Assembly (NCBI GenBank): GCA_035502855.1
Contig: DATJTX010000018.1
Span: 124,001-188,000 of the forward strand
Reading direction: 5' to 3'
DNA length: 64,000 nucleotides
Source of the DNA: Candidatus Baltobacteraceae bacterium
GTDB lineage: Bacteria; Vulcanimicrobiota; Vulcanimicrobiia; Vulcanimicrobiales; Vulcanimicrobiaceae
Each line of letters opens with the position of its first letter. Position 1 is the stretch's first letter. The notes below the pieces were generated by a model, which was not told where the DNA came from, ran no database searches, and saw only the letters and a program-made list of their open reading frames with translations. The translations under genes and the position numbers were made by a program. Below, one piece after another: positions 36,428 to 62,710 of the stretch.

Positions 36428-36453
36428 CCAGACTTTATCGGTCAAAGTTAAAA

Positions 36454-36554
36454 CTTTGCCCGCTAAAGTCGCGCGGCTTCGCTACGCTACGCTCGCGCAG
36501 CTCTAGCTATCGCTCGAAGTTAAGCTTTGCCCGCTAAAGTCGCGCGGCTTCGCT
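36454..36554. repeat. Two direct copies of a 30-bp repeat
   Basis: The 30-bp word starting ctttgcccgctaaagtcgcg and ending cggcttcgct is found at 36454-36483 and again at 36525-36554, 71 bp apart, in the gap between the convergent receptor and O-mannosyltransferase genes. A tcgctacgct word between them is also doubled. Confidence 0.85.
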
Positions 36555-36563
36555 CGCGCAGGT

Positions 36564-38069
36564 CTAACCGTGCCAGGAAGGGAGCCAGAGGCGTTGGAGC
36601 CAGGCGGTCTGCGAGATCGTGACCGATGAGAGAATCGGAAAGAAGTAGATGAAGGCGAGTGCGACGAGCACGAGATAGCCGGCCACGATCGCCTTCGCCG
36701 CTTTCGGGTCGGAACGGCCCAATGTCGCGAGAATGACCTGCATCATCACCGTATTGCAAATCGCGATCAGCGGAATATTCACGTAGAAGTGATAGAGGAA
36801 CGCGATGCGCGGCGAAAACATCCAGGGCAGCCACTGCAACAGATACGCCAGCACGATCAGGGCATAGCCGCGATCGCGGCGGATGAACGCCAGCACGCCG
36901 ACCAACGGGACCGAGATCAGTCCCGGCCAGAGCAGCAGCGGATTGGGCATCGAGTAGATCATCGCCGCCGTCGGAACACCGTTGACGTTTCCGTATTGGG
37001 CGCTGTACAGCAGCGGGCGCAGCTCGAGCGGCCAGGTCCACCACGACGAAGCGTACGGGTGCGTGGCGCGCAGATGCTCGTGATAGAGAAATGCATTGAC
37101 CTGCATGGTGACGATGTCGCTGACCGTGTAGGGCCGCGGGGGCAAAGTTTGCAGATCGCGCAGGCCGATGAAGTGCGGAATGTACGCGAGCGCGTAGACG
37201 ATACCGATGCTGCCGACGACGGCTGCCGCAAAAATGTCGATCGGAAAGGGTGAGGCGCGGCGCGCGATCCACGAACGGATCGCACCGTACGCCACTACGG
37301 CCGCTGCCACGCCGTACGCCATCACACCGTACCACTTGCTGGCGACGAGCAATGCACCCGAGAAGGCGAAGGTGATCAACCAGCCGGCTCCGATGGGGCG
37401 ATCGCGCCAGATCCGGTAGGCGGCGTAGAGCGATGCGGAAATGACGACCAGGAGCACGATGCGCGCCGGGAGGGTCTCGGTTCGAAAACGCACGAACGCC
37501 ACGAGCGCGCCGATCGCCAGCGCGGCGAGAAATTCGAGCGCGTGGCGCAGCCACGATCGTTTATCGACAGCTGCGGCGGCGGCGCCCGCGACGGCATCCC
37601 AGTAGCGGCAAAACGCGTAGAGCGTAAAGATCGAAAAGCAGACGACGAAGCCTTCGGGCGTCGCGATGCGCGATTGCACGTAATGCATGCCGTCCAAACC
37701 GAAGAGCACGGCCGCGTAGGCGGCAAAGAGCGTCGAGCGCAGGATCCGCTTTGCCAGGACGAAGCAGAGGACGACCGCGACCGCTCCGGCGACGACGTTG
37801 AGAAATCGCCATCCGTACGCCGTATCGCCGTGCTGCAAACCGCCGAAGAGAATCACCGAAAGCGTAATCAAGAGTTTAGTGACCGGCGGATGCGTGTTCT
37901 CGTAGATGTAGCGGCGCTGGAGATATTCTTCGGCGGCGCGCGCGAAGTAGACTTCGTCGAAGATTTTGCCCGGCGGCACCCAATAGCGGATCACGAGCAG
38001 CACGAAGGAGGCGATGCCCAGTGCCGCTGCGATGACGGCATCGCGTGTGCGTTGCGAGAGCGCGATCAC
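36564..38069 (-). CDS. Protein O-mannosyltransferase (PMT, GT39 family)
   Basis: Moves mannose from polyprenyl-phosphate-mannose to Ser/Thr of exported proteins. The 501-residue protein has about ten to eleven helices. The first outside loop has FDEVYFARAAEEYL with the acidic pair (DE) of PMTs, followed by NTHPPVTKLLI; FVVCFSIFTLYAF and WPLELRPLLYSAQYGN fit the actinobacterial/bacterial PMT family. The fungal MIR domain is absent, as usual in bacteria. GTG 38069 overlaps the stop of the preceding small membrane gene (GTGA), which in turn overlaps a sigma-factor gene. So a predicted O-mannosylation enzyme is expressed from a sigma operon. The donor may come from the GT2 enzyme at 11.8 kb. Confidence 0.88.
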   Translation of the reverse strand: MIALSQRTRDAVIAAALGIASFVLLVIRYWVPPGKIFDEVYFARAAEEYLQRRYIYENTHPPVTKLLITLSVILFGGLQHGDTAYGWRFLNVVAGAVAVVLCFVLAKRILRSTLFAAYAAVLFGLDGMHYVQSRIATPEGFVVCFSIFTLYAFCRYWDAVAGAAAAAVDKRSWLRHALEFLAALAIGALVAFVRFRTETLPARIVLLVVISASLYAAYRIWRDRPIGAGWLITFAFSGALLVASKWYGVMAYGVAAAVVAYGAIRSWIARRASPFPIDIFAAAVVGSIGIVYALAYIPHFIGLRDLQTLPPRPYTVSDIVTMQVNAFLYHEHLRATHPYASSWWTWPLELRPLLYSAQYGNVNGVPTAAMIYSMPNPLLLWPGLISVPLVGVLAFIRRDRGYALIVLAYLLQWLPWMFSPRIAFLYHFYVNIPLIAICNTVMMQVILATLGRSDPKAAKAIVAGYLVLVALAFIYFFPILSSVTISQTAWLQRLWLPSWHG

Positions 38070-38320
38070 GTGGCGAGGGGGGAGGGAGCGGGAACCGGCG
38101 CGACGGCCACGGCGGACACATGGATCGGCGCGGCGCCGTATTCACCGGCAAAGAGCGCGAGCGAGGCAAGCAATGCGGCAGCGGACAGCATCGTCCGCGC
38201 GCGGCGCCGTTCGGTCCTGCGCCGGTACTGCGCCGCTCGCTCGCGCATGCGCCCAAGTGCGAAGGACGGCGCGGTCACGTCCAACGCCGCGCGCAGCGCC
38301 GCGCGGAGATCAACCGGCAT
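38066..38320 (-). CDS. Small single-pass membrane protein between sigma factor and PMT genes
   Basis: Starting at ATG 38320, inside the end of the sigma gene (11-bp overlap), it encodes 84 residues: a basic cytoplasmic N-terminus (RERAAQYRRRTERRRARTML, about 24-43), one membrane helix (about 44-62) and a short Pro/Ala-rich outer tail. The position suggests a minimal anti-sigma or a membrane partner of the PMT, but there is no zinc-binding (HxxxCxxC) motif. A longer frame up to 38362 exists but the overlap start is the simpler choice. I do not recognise the family. Confidence 0.62.
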   Translation of the reverse strand: MPVDLRAALRAALDVTAPSFALGRMRERAAQYRRRTERRRARTMLSAAALLASLALFAGEYGAAPIHVSAVAVAPVPAPSPLAT

Positions 38321-38879
38321 CGAAGAGCGCCTCGGCAAGACCACACGGACGGTGCCCGGCAAGGAGCGATTCCAAGCGCCGCCGAGCGAGCAACAGATGA
38401 TAGCGCGCCGTGCCTTCGGGCATCGCGAGAACCTCGGCGATCTCGCGGCTGTTCAGGCCGGCGTAGTAGTGCAGCACGATCGCGACCCGTTGACGCGGCG
38501 GCAGCGCACCGAGCGCGCGCAGCACGTCGATCCGCACCAGCACATCGGTCAACGGCGAAGCGGACGCGACGGTGCGTGGATCGAGCGGTTCGCACGCGCG
38601 CGTGCGCCGTTCGATCGCAAGCGCTTCGCGAACCACCAGCCGGTAGAACCACACGCCGAAGGCCGCACTGCAGCGCAGCCCCGCAAGAGCGTGGATGACG
38701 CGCGCGCAGGCTTCCTGAGCCGCATCCTCGGCGGCCATCGGATGGCGCAGAATCGAGAGCGCGATGCGATAGGCATGCGGCCAGATCGCGGCGATCAGCG
38801 CGTCGAGCGCAGCCGCATCCCCCCGCCGTGCCCGCTCGACCGCATCGGCGTGCAATTCGCAATCCAGCATCCTCGCCAT
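38310..38879 (-). CDS. ECF-type RNA polymerase sigma factor
   Basis: A 189-residue sigma-70 family protein. Region 2 (about 12-85) has HPMAAEDAAQEACARVIHAL and FGVWFYRLVVREAL; region 4 (about 120-175) has LGALPPRQRVAIVLHYYAGL, NSREIAEVLAMPEGTARYHL. Start ATG 38879 or ATG 38870. It overlaps a small membrane protein gene, and then a PMT gene follows, all on minus. It is only distantly similar to the ECF sigma at 1.4 kb, which has its own anti-sigma. The 180-bp gap upstream should hold its promoter; no clear autoregulatory motif was found by eye. Confidence 0.88.
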   Translation of the reverse strand: MARMLDCELHADAVERARRGDAAALDALIAAIWPHAYRIALSILRHPMAAEDAAQEACARVIHALAGLRCSAAFGVWFYRLVVREALAIERRTRACEPLDPRTVASASPLTDVLVRIDVLRALGALPPRQRVAIVLHYYAGLNSREIAEVLAMPEGTARYHLLLARRRLESLLAGHRPCGLAEALFDAG

Positions 38880-38997
38880 CTCTTCATACTAGAGGCGCAG
38901 ACTCCCCCAAAGTGTTGGCGGCTGCAGAAACTTGCCAAGCGCATCAAGCGTAGGCGCAGCGTATCCGTGTCCGCCGATGTTTCCAGCGCCGGCCCCT

Positions 38998-39412: not shown

Positions 39413-40477
39413 TTATTCCCCGTCATAGTAGTCGAGCTGCGGCGCGTTGCGCACCATCCAGCGGACGCCGGCCGTCGAGACCAGGAGCTTGTCGGACTCG
39501 GGGTAGTAGACGATGTTTTGCTCTTGCTCTTGTCCCAGTAGCAGGAGCGTGGCCTCGGCCGGGCTCTCGTTGATCACCTGATGCGCGTGATCCGGGCCGA
39601 CGGGAAACGCGATGAAATCGCCGGTTCGGCAGCGCATCGTTTCCTTCGTCGTACGAATGCTCGGCTCGCCGTCGAGCACGAGGAAGAGCTCCTCCTCGCT
39701 GAACTCCGCGTGAACCGGACAAAAGCGCGCGCCCGGCGGAAGCTTCACCACCTGATATCCCAGATGCTCGGCGCCGATCCAGAAGCCGACCTCGGCGTCG
39801 AACGAACGATAGCGCGGATTCGTCGCGAATTCTTCGTACCGCAGCTGGTCGAGATTGATCCGGTTGACCGCGATCCCGCCGCGCGCGTGAAGCGCAACGC
39901 CGATCGCGCGCGTCGCGCCGCTCCACAGCGACGTACCGTCGCCGACCAACAGCACGTCGGGCTGCAGCGCGAGAAGTCGCCGCAGCGCGAGCACCGCTTT
40001 CATCGAGTCGCCGTACTTTTCGTCCGGCAAGAGCGAGAGCGACCCTGCCGGTGACCCGATCAACGCGTCACCGACGAGCACCGCATGAGCGGCACGCAGA
40101 TGAAGCGCGAATTCGCCGGGCGTCTTTTGCGACTCGAGCGCGACGACCCGAGCGCCGGGAAAAAGTTCTTCACCATCGGTGAGCACACGGTCGACGTTCA
40201 CGCCGAGCAGCGGCGCCTCGCGTTCCGAGGTGGCGAGCAGTGCCCCGAACCGTTCGCGCAATGCGAGTGATTCGCGCAGGTGGTCGCGATTGGTCACGGC
40301 GATCAACGCGATGCCGCCGAGCGCCTCGATTTGCTCGGCATCGCTTGGTTCGAGCGCGAGCGGATCGACCGCGACATTGCCCTGCGCCGTAACAAAGAAA
40401 TGGCTGTTGAAGAACAGGTTACGGTCGGGCTGCCACCGCGACCATGTGTAACCGTTTGGCATCGAGAGCTTTTGCAT
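39413..40477 (-). CDS. MBL-like domain fused to a C-terminal cupin
   Basis: A 354-residue two-domain protein starting at ATG 40477. Residues about 15-205 look like a metallo-beta-lactamase fold (RNLFFNSHFFVTAQGNVAVD, ALIAVTNRDHLRES, VLVGDALIGSPAGSLSLLPD). The usual THxHxDH zinc motif is changed to TNRDHLRE, so the zinc site is incomplete. Residues about 235-330 form a cupin: GARFCPVHAEFSEEELFLVL and RTGDFIAFPVGPDHAHQV, with His/Glu ligands partly kept. I know no standard family with this pair. It may bind a small ligand rather than act as a hydrolase. The upstream frame (to 40714) has no coding look. Confidence 0.72.
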   Translation of the reverse strand: MQKLSMPNGYTWSRWQPDRNLFFNSHFFVTAQGNVAVDPLALEPSDAEQIEALGGIALIAVTNRDHLRESLALRERFGALLATSEREAPLLGVNVDRVLTDGEELFPGARVVALESQKTPGEFALHLRAAHAVLVGDALIGSPAGSLSLLPDEKYGDSMKAVLALRRLLALQPDVLLVGDGTSLWSGATRAIGVALHARGGIAVNRINLDQLRYEEFATNPRYRSFDAEVGFWIGAEHLGYQVVKLPPGARFCPVHAEFSEEELFLVLDGEPSIRTTKETMRCRTGDFIAFPVGPDHAHQVINESPAEATLLLLGQEQEQNIVYYPESDKLLVSTAGVRWMVRNAPQLDYYDGE

Positions 40478-40513
40478 AATGTAGCGACAGTTCTTAGCGG
40501 AAAGGATGTTCCC

Positions 40514-40600
40514 ATGCCTCTGGTTCGCATCGATCTCCCCGCCGGCGGACACGGTAGAGAACGCGCACGTTTCTCTGTTGCTCGGAGTAGGCTGATATGA
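40514..40600 (+). pseudogene. Probable remnant of a 4-oxalocrotonate tautomerase-family gene
   Basis: ATG 40514, with a GGAAAGGA ribosome site, opens MPLVRIDLPAGGHGRERARF and ends at TGA 40600 after 28 codons. MPLVRIDLPAG is the typical start of small tautomerases with catalytic Pro2, but the 60-70 residue rest is missing and the sequence diverges after Gly11. It is divergent from the MBL/cupin gene. I read it as a decayed or deletion-truncated gene. Confidence 0.45.
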
Positions 40601-40702
40601 TAGTGTGTCTGCATGTCTCAGCCCCAAATCGGATAGCGACCTGCGTTCCCGGGCACCATGGCACTGCGGCGTCGACGAGTCTTCTCCGCGTGAATAATGC
40701 GT

Positions 40703-40736
40703 TGCCTCCTGCACGTTTGCGTGCTATAGGGAGGCA
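40703..40736 (+). promoter_or_regulatory. Hairpin covering the ribosome site of the next gene
   Basis: TGCCTCC (40703-40709) pairs with GGAGGCA (40730-40736), and inside it GCACG pairs with CGTGC around a TTTG loop. The right arm is the GGAGG ribosome site lying 5 bases before a possible ATT start at 40740 (17 bases before the GTG at 40752). The stem extends to 9 bp with one G-T pair. No T-run follows, so it is not a standard terminator. Confidence 0.5.
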
Positions 40737-61363: not shown

Positions 61364-62710
61364 TCAGTGGCCGGTCGTTTTTACTTGGGCGATCTTCTTC
61401 TGCAAAAAGTCAAGCGCGGCGCGCAATTGCGGATCCTTCACCGGATCACCGAAGCGTGCGTCACGCGGCTCCGCTACGGTAAGGTCGGGTTGGATCCCCT
61501 TTAGGTTGATGTCCTGATGATTCGGCGTCAAATAATGCGCGGTCGTGATCTTGATCGCGGCGCCGTCGGCAAGCGGGGTGAGCGTCTGCATCACGCCCTT
61601 ACCGAACGTGCGCGTCCCGATCAGCGAGGCGATGCCGTCGTCCTGCAGCGCACCGGCGGTGATCTCCGACGCCGACGCGGTGTACTCGTTGACCAACACG
61701 GTCACCGGAACGTCGATTGCCACGCCGTCGCTATCAGCGGTGACGGTCGTGTCCGGGCTGCCGCGTTCTTCGACGGTGAGCAGCGGTTTGTCGGCAATGA
61801 ACCGCTCGCTGATCTGCAGCGCCGATTCGACGTAACCGCCGCCGTCGTTGCGCAGGTCGAGTACGAGGGCCCTTGCGCCGGCGTTCTTCAGGCGGCTGAT
61901 CGCCGTGTCGAATTCGTCGGGCGTGCTTTGTCCAAAGGCGAGCACGTAAACGTAGCCGATCGAGCCCGGAAGCATTTTGGAGACGACGGTCGGCGGTTCC
62001 AGCTCGCTGCGCGTGATCGCGGTGGCAAAGGGCGCCGCATTGCCGCGAACGATGCCAAGATTCACCGTCGTGCCGGCTTTGCCGCGCAGCAGCTTGCTGG
62101 CGTTGTCCGTCGTGATGCCTTTGGTCGATGCACCGTCGATCGTCGCGATCTCGTCACCGGGTTGCAATCCGGCGCGGTCGGCCGGCGTGCCGGGGACGAC
62201 GTACGACACGTCGATCAATCCGCTGGTCGCGTCCGGCTGAATCAGAACGCCGATGCCGGAAATCTTCTCCGGATCCAGCGCGTCTTTGAACGCCTTGTAC
62301 TCACTGGGCGTCATGAACTCCGTGTAGCGGTCGTCGACGGCCCTAGCCATCGCGTCGATCGCAGCGTAGGCATACTCGGTCGTCGATCCGTGCGCGTCCG
62401 CGGCGGCATCGGCAATCGCGCTGTCGAGGGCCTGCGTGTTCGCCTGGGGATCGTCGCTCGCGCGAAGCGGCACGACCGCAATCTTCGACCCGTGCTTGTG
62501 CGCGACGTCGATCAATGCGGCGCGCGCTTTATCGAGCAGCGTTTGCGGATCGATCGGGCGATAGTACGAGGTCGCGAGCAGGTGATAGCTTTCGTTCACG
62601 TCCTGCGCCGTCGCCGACGGAAGCGCTTCCGACGCAAAGACCGGCAACGTGCCGGCCAACAGGAGGACAGACGCGCAAAAAGCGGCGCGGACGCGAGAGG
62701 TCAGGTTCAT
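61364..62710 (-). CDS. CtpA-type carboxy-terminal processing protease (S41)
   Basis: A 448-residue exported serine protease (start ATG 62710). Signal peptide (LLLAGTLPVFASEA), helical N-part, PDZ domain (about 195-275; ISGIGVLIQPDATSGLIDVS, AGLQPGDEIATIDGAS), and the S41 core: LVLDLRNDGGGYVESALQIS, catalytic Ser in NEYTASASEITAGALQDDG, Lys in RTFGKGVMQTL. It probably trims periplasmic or wall proteins. Stands alone on the minus strand. Confidence 0.93.
   Translation of the reverse strand: MNLTSRVRAAFCASVLLLAGTLPVFASEALPSATAQDVNESYHLLATSYYRPIDPQTLLDKARAALIDVAHKHGSKIAVVPLRASDDPQANTQALDSAIADAAADAHGSTTEYAYAAIDAMARAVDDRYTEFMTPSEYKAFKDALDPEKISGIGVLIQPDATSGLIDVSYVVPGTPADRAGLQPGDEIATIDGASTKGITTDNASKLLRGKAGTTVNLGIVRGNAAPFATAITRSELEPPTVVSKMLPGSIGYVYVLAFGQSTPDEFDTAISRLKNAGARALVLDLRNDGGGYVESALQISERFIADKPLLTVEERGSPDTTVTADSDGVAIDVPVTVLVNEYTASASEITAGALQDDGIASLIGTRTFGKGVMQTLTPLADGAAIKITTAHYLTPNHQDINLKGIQPDLTVAEPRDARFGDPVKDPQLRAALDFLQKKIAQVKTTGH

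Follow-up and report, generated by a model that had tools for sequence, protein, structure and literature searches.

Organization of the operon

The operon described here lies on the minus strand of a 64,000-nucleotide stretch (hereafter the window; positions 124,001 to 188,000 of contig DATJTX010000018.1, assembly GCA_035502855.1; G000:C18:124001-188000 in our numbering) from the 3.33-Mb genome of a soil bacterium, Candidatus Baltobacteraceae bacterium. It consists of genes for an extracytoplasmic function (ECF) sigma factor, a membrane protein of 84 amino acids (aa) and a protein O-mannosyltransferase (PMT). The sigma and small genes overlap by 11 bp (38310-38320), the small and PMT genes by 4 bp (38066-38069). 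These overlaps, the three gene types and the end of the PMT gene at 36564 had been given in a preliminary description of the window, and are borne out by the reading frames and domain matches; from the overlaps we infer that the three genes are co-translated. The features of the operon are as follows.

38890-38918, minus strand: predicted autoregulatory promoter, with -35 element CCAACA (38913-38918), an 18-nt spacer and -10 element CTCTA (38890-38894)
38310-38879, minus strand: ECF sigma factor gene, 189 aa, from Sigma70_r2 and Sigma70_r4_2 matches and the sigma tree
38066-38320, minus strand: gene of the 84-aa predicted minimal membrane anti-sigma factor, from homology and the ratio of nonsynonymous to synonymous differences (pN/pS)
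38201-38320, minus strand: residues 1-40 of the small protein (inner anti-sigma part), with a net charge of +7 and the motif P18...IR/MR.RA
38144-38200, minus strand: single transmembrane segment, residues 41-59, from hydropathy
38069-38107, minus strand: Pro/Ala-rich tail, the last 13 residues (VAPVPAPSPLAT type), candidate O-mannosylation acceptor
36564-38069, minus strand: PMT gene (GT-C type), 501 aa, GTG start
37953-37958, minus strand: codons of D38-E39, the catalytic Asp-Glu pair of the enzyme, which aligns with FDE in chain 9e61_A of fungal Pmt4
37005-37061, minus strand: PMT loop HPYASSWWTWPLELRPLLY, residues 337-355, placed like the Pro-rich WW-like loop of the Mycobacterium tuberculosis PMT

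Comparison of the sigma factor with Pfam gave matches to PF08281 (56.9 bits), PF04545 (34.8 bits) and PF04542 (34 bits), all exceeding the curated cut-offs, and it scored 75.5 bits against TIGR02937 (cut-off 42.9); solved ECF sigma factors match it as well. Sigma-70 regions 2 and 4 within about 190 aa are the make-up of an ECF sigma factor.

The small protein belongs with larger membrane anti-sigma factors

The sigma factor of this Candidatus Eremiobacterota genome was searched in 118 relatives, and a profile of seven sigmas was searched in a family of 99 genomes. The better-scoring sigma loci were taken, part of the weaker matches being left out, and the gene behind each sigma was read; with a broken sigma (L019) dropped before counting and duplicates removed, 90 loci were tabulated. 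A contig search of related genomes gave mainly other ECF sigmas, two of its loci (L173, L176) being useful. Behind the 90 sigmas lay 79 partners of 192-392 aa and 10 of 66-100 aa, the latter in 10 of the 99 genomes and in 8 genera; at one locus (L106) the partner was not readable, and at three others (L013, L033, L168) it is cut by a contig or locus end. The survey also shows an expanded family of Eremiobacterota ECF sigmas, some 79 loci with L081 and L082 among them, with overlapping 192-392-aa membrane anti-sigma factors.

The larger partners begin with a short N-terminal part, followed by a single membrane helix near residue 40 and an outer domain, for which no Pfam family exceeded its cut-off in any of the seven tested. 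They overlap the end of the sigma gene by 11 bp (46/79), 8 bp (16/79) or 4 bp (11/79), and eight of the ten small partners do so by 11 bp. A hidden Markov model (HMM) built solely from residues 1-65 of each of the 79 larger partners matched all ten small proteins (E-values 3.2e-10 to 0.0073), nine of them at 7.3e-5 or better, the window protein standing at exactly that value. Searching in the opposite direction, with a profile built from seven small proteins, gave matches to the N-terminal starts of sigma-adjacent larger partners (e.g. G057:C19, E 8.3e-7), and the motif P18...IR/MR.RA is common to both groups. A control with 2000 shuffled small proteins weakens this assignment for the window protein taken alone, since the best shuffle (2.9e-5; the next, 0.041) outscored it; its case as an anti-sigma factor therefore leans more on its nine orthologues.

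The small proteins thus show the N-terminal motif, membrane helix and overlap with the sigma end that mark the anti-sigma factors of this family, and have lost the outer domain, with 18-41 residues left outside the membrane. In an IQ-TREE tree of the 90 sigmas, a single branch (support 97/84) sets the ten that have small partners apart from the rest, and this split was recovered in 96% of 200 bootstrap trees, the branches being long. The small protein is very probably a minimal membrane anti-sigma factor, predicted to bind its sigma. The "new minimal anti-sigma" of the preliminary description is upheld in this form, as a protein homologous to the larger partners behind related sigmas over their inner and membrane portions.

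The small frame is also under purifying selection, the absence of which had been named beforehand as a refutation. Compared with G001, a genome of the same genus, it has a pN/pS of 0.46, the two alternative frames giving 1.02 and 1.93; the values for the sigma and PMT genes are 0.30 and 0.26. The basic inner part, the single helix and the missing zinc anti-sigma motif were all confirmed. No family in Pfam or NCBIfam was matched above cut-off, and sub-cut-off matches to DUF3040, SLATT and MrtJ were rejected. As the protein contains no cysteine, the motif Hx3Cx2C is missing, and a zinc anti-sigma factor is excluded.

Class I anti-sigma domains (zinc or non-zinc ASDI) are four-helix domains of some 100 aa that frequently contain Hx3Cx2C, and do not fit inner parts of 29-44 aa. 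The small proteins instead have the features of class II (CnrY-like) anti-sigma factors, namely an inner domain below 50 aa, one membrane helix and a gene alongside that of an ECF sigma; class II members such as CnrY have been described as having an inner domain of this size and an ECF sigma encoded alongside (PMC7406223). Class II domains clasp sigma-4 and sigma-2 with two helices; an AlphaFold2 model of the small protein gave helices at residues 5-16 and 19-60, in line with this architecture but with low confidence (mean predicted local distance difference test, pLDDT, of 63), and a search of the small-protein profile against solved chains, up to an E-value of 10, gave no anti-sigma match, a direct comparison with CnrY not having been made. 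Because the helix model is of low confidence and no sequence relation to solved anti-sigma factors was found, the protein is not filed as a relative of CnrY.

One small protein (genome G032, locus L072, 6245-6442) has only about 29 inner residues and lacks the first predicted helix, and the C-terminus of its sigma is shorter; a further reduction of the anti-sigma domain is possible there.

A predicted promoter common to the small-type loci

The pattern CCAACA-N17/18-CTCTA was found upstream of the sigma gene in all ten loci with small partners, with 10-11 of 11 positions matching. It ends 5-13 nt before the sigma start (10 nt between the -10 element and the start codon in the window), and at every locus none of 50 shuffles equalled its score. 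Larger-type sigma genes carry related versions, many of them CCAACA...CTCTA-like. On the strength of this motif, the operon is probably autoregulated.

In the window genome the exact pattern occurs twice, at the operon and at C7:21217, and its reversed control once. Across the ten genomes, few matches were seen beyond the operon, at about the frequency of the reversed-pattern control, and for that reason no wider regulon is claimed; the promoter pattern suggests that the regulon of this sigma is small.

The PMT enzyme and its variants

The operon enzyme scored 53.5 bits against PMT (PF02366; cut-off 22.7), 67 bits against PMT_4TMC (PF16192; cut-off 32.4) and 64.4 bits against the NCBIfam PMT equivalog (cut-off 800). 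With both Pfam domains and a DE motif in the first outer loop, it is a predicted protein O-mannosyltransferase of the GT39 type. In the WW-like loop, W346-x8-Y355 is kept and the proline of the motif is replaced by W343; R421-x2-F424 is kept as well. A structure model of the enzyme had a mean pLDDT of 40.6 and was not used.

Eight of the small-type loci carry a PMT next to the small gene (G000, G001, G058, G032, G010, G013, G118 and G119), and these are referred to as cassettes. The loop motif is found in seven of the eight cassette PMTs, the frame of G118 stopping short of the loop. Five of the enzymes are of about 500 aa, and those of G013 and G119 are of about 1100 aa with an extra N-terminal GT-C half; the G118 frame begins like this longer type and stops near the contig end. 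As two PMT architectures occur in cassettes, the link between sigma and PMT outlasts a swap of the enzyme type. In all eight genomes the cassette PMT is an additional copy, that of the window being the second of its genome, and the two genomes in which no neighbouring PMT was seen (G014, G137) have one PMT locus each.

PMT matches were present in all family genomes searched. L074 and L080 (in G023 and G000) also carry a long PMT, of 983-1085 aa, in which a second GT-C half lies at the N-terminus; at both, it is preceded by a gene which we take to be polyprenyl synthase-like.

Linkage of the sigma/anti-sigma pair to PMT

In the eight cassettes, the PMT gene overlaps the small gene or starts within about 130 nt of its end. 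Of the other two small-type loci, G014 has an opposite-strand gene in the PMT position, and the contig of G137 ends 144 nt past the small gene. Queries with both short and long PMTs gave no PMT-like match downstream of any of the 79 larger-type pairs; at least 600 nt downstream were available in 71 of these loci and at least 1500 nt in 35, so that a distant PMT could be missed in many. A chance neighbourhood was rejected on these counts (8/10 versus 0/79).

The adjacency in eight of ten loci would also be expected of a small protein that serves as a subunit or chaperone of the PMT rather than as an anti-sigma factor. This is very improbable, as the small protein stands behind the sigma in all ten loci and not always beside a PMT, six lone PMTs do without it, and its homologues are the partners of sigmas with no PMT nearby.

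The bond is not tight from the side of the enzyme. Of 12 genomes strongly matching the short PMT, four have it in a cassette and six without the sigma, one has the long type and one is cut by a contig end; six of the ten readable short-type PMT loci thus lack sigma and promoter, so that the enzyme does not depend on the sigma. Upstream of these six lone enzymes, and of one PMT of the long type, the best promoter matches reached 6-8 of 11 positions and are not claimed. The preliminary description had held that its view would fall if the three genes were not neighbours in relatives: the order is kept in eight genomes of six genera, and the six lone enzymes go the other way.

In G001, the sigma and small genes sit between a gene of about 100 aa and the PMT gene. 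The latter two are near neighbours in G050 and have other frames between them in G033 and G052; since the pair is absent there from all three genomes, it was gained or lost at this place. Short PMT genes were also seen close to a FliA-like sigma and the ~100-aa gene in several genomes (L065-L068), and in G001 the ECF sigma and its small partner gene are placed between these genes and PMT, which is not so in G033, G050 or G052.

A conserved C-terminal tail

The small proteins share a C-terminal motif, PxPx(1-3)[ST]A?$, found in 10/10 of them versus 0/76 closed larger partners. Among 501 open reading frames of at least 80 aa from the window and the fetched loci, it occurs in two, one of which is a small partner. 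The invariant columns of the first seven small proteins are M1, P18, R28, P79, P81 and T84, and three members found after the tail had been noticed in these seven (G118, G119 and G137) all carry the motif; otherwise, the proteins are only 27-41% identical outside the same genus. Between G000 and G001, pN/pS is 0.17 for the last 13 codons, 0.58 for the inner part and 0.44 for the membrane part. The possibility that the ending is an artefact of the 4-bp overlap with PMT was rejected, since G058, G032 and G014 keep it without an overlap.

According to a recent study (PMC12331936, 2025), the sites mannosylated by the M. tuberculosis PMT show an excess of Pro, Ala and additional Ser/Thr and occur in N- or C-terminal segments with little structure, acceptors being recognised via a WW-like outer loop. 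The tail agrees in composition and predicted disorder with such an acceptor, being a Pro/Ala-rich, unstructured, terminal segment with Ser/Thr outside the membrane. The chances that the tail is a PMT acceptor appear evenly balanced. The alternative role given to the small protein in the preliminary description, a "PMT partner", receives indirect support as an acceptor-like outer tail, a more specific form that had not been proposed.

The position of the hydroxy amino acid invites a different interpretation. Thr or Ser is the last residue in nine of the ten proteins and the last but one in the tenth, which is superfluous for a plain mannosylation site and would also serve a protease or PDZ reader acting at the C-terminus. 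The tail might then be a C-terminal handle by which a protease, PDZ-bearing or tail-specific, sets off cleavage of the anti-sigma factor, with sensing that does not involve mannose. The window genome does encode a site-2 protease and S41 proteases of the tail-specific type, including one in the window:

61475-61960, minus strand: match to an S41 (tail-specific type) peptidase, one of five in the genome

Such a handle would leave the Pro/Ala richness and the neighbouring PMT unexplained, and the tail matches no specific PDZ ligand class; we consider it rather improbable.

It is also conceivable that the PMT is a mere output of the operon, the sigma answering some other membrane or envelope signal through a plain anti-sigma factor whose tail is a stub unrelated to PMT. 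Target genes are often carried within ECF operons, this family is represented in the genomes by many sigma/anti-sigma pairs that vary in their outer domains, and lone short PMTs work without the sigma. A stub is nevertheless unlikely to keep a P.P..T end while the remainder of the protein drifts so far, and would predict neither the tail in all ten proteins nor PMT beside eight of them. This explanation is regarded as unlikely.

A possible mannosylation feedback

The reading preferred here is an autoregulated ECF sigma operon dedicated to an extra PMT, in which a small anti-sigma factor carries an acceptor-like tail in place of a sensor domain and mannosylation of that tail feeds back on the sigma; its probability is put at about 0.45, from sequence comparisons. 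The basic inner part of the small protein would hold the sigma at the membrane, and the operon PMT, or a housekeeping PMT, would mannosylate the tail, the bulkier product shielding the anti-sigma factor from proteolysis. Candidate cutters are a tail-specific protease followed by a site-2 protease with a PDZ size filter. The PDZ pair of RseP has been described as a size filter (PMC7728848), and RseP cleaves membrane proteins that have a single pass and measure about 50-100 aa (PMC10470546). A short stub might pass such a filter unless sugar enlarges the tail. Should mannosylation lag, bare anti-sigma factor would be cut and the sigma freed, leading to more sigma, anti-sigma factor and PMT; such a loop would act homeostatically, sensing the capacity for mannosylation.

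That the modification state of the tail controls the sigma is a tentative proposal. Its logic is that of yeast, where loss of Pmt4 leaves Msb2 underglycosylated and switches the pathway on (PMC6403458). The strict form, a direct sensor in which the sole outer feature of the anti-sigma factor is an acceptor tail, mannosylated by the sigma-controlled PMT, and loss of mannose frees the sigma and so restores the enzyme, is doubtful.

Several observations weigh against the preferred reading, besides the shuffle control, the lone PMT loci and the terminal Thr/Ser already mentioned. At G014 the tail is kept with no neighbouring PMT; in two more distant pairs the tail pN/pS is 0.44 and 0.55, a weaker constraint; the tail data come from one clade and thus represent a single evolutionary origin; and the tail motif was defined once the sequences had been seen.

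If the feedback exists, a bacterium could measure and adjust a glycosylation pathway with the glycan on an anti-sigma factor as the signal, a counterpart in logic of yeast Msb2/Pmt4, and it would offer a compact, testable case from a little-studied, mostly uncultured phylum, centred on few conserved residues (the last 13 of the small protein). Even without sensing, there would be a family of very short anti-sigma factors derived from sensor-bearing ones, and a PMT under a dedicated sigma of its own.

Surroundings of the operon

Downstream of PMT lies a convergent TonB-receptor gene, and upstream of the operon is the following gene:

39413-40714, minus strand: fusion of a metallo-beta-lactamase fold (PF14597) and a cupin

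Because of these two neighbours, the operon looks limited to three genes. Just past the PMT gene (36451-36566), two 33-nt direct repeats lie 71 nt apart; their 27-nt core has five copies in the genome (up to two mismatches) and none in the reversed control.

Comparison with known systems

A search of the open-access literature, covering titles and the starts of abstracts, found neither glycosylated anti-sigma factors nor PMT/sigma operons, and the nearest systems each resemble the operon in part. CnrY of Cupriavidus metallidurans, which occurs with CnrH and CnrX, has one membrane helix and a small outer part, and works with a separate metal sensor, CnrX. The small proteins resemble it in their very short inner domain (29-44 aa) and missing zinc motif; unlike in the Cnr system, the gene position of CnrX is taken by PMT, and a Pro/Ala-rich tail forms the outer part. 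With the RseA/DegS/RseP system they share a single-pass anti-sigma factor with its N-terminus inside, and a site-2 protease is encoded in the window genome; RseA differs in its class I domain and in being cut by DegS within a periplasmic domain, where the small proteins have a tail of 18-41 residues.

The M. tuberculosis PMT is alike in enzyme family, DE catalytic pair and loop W-x8-Y, and its Pro/Ala-rich terminal Ser/Thr acceptors are similar in kind to the tail. It differs in the loop, P359 corresponding to W343 of the window enzyme, and the accessible part of the study describes no anti-sigma acceptors (PMC12331936). The yeast Msb2/Pmt4 pair comes closest in logic, as underglycosylation of a sensor after PMT loss switches signalling on (PMC6403458); it belongs to a eukaryotic mitogen-activated protein kinase pathway and relies on a large mucin domain, and homology to the bacterial operon is not claimed.

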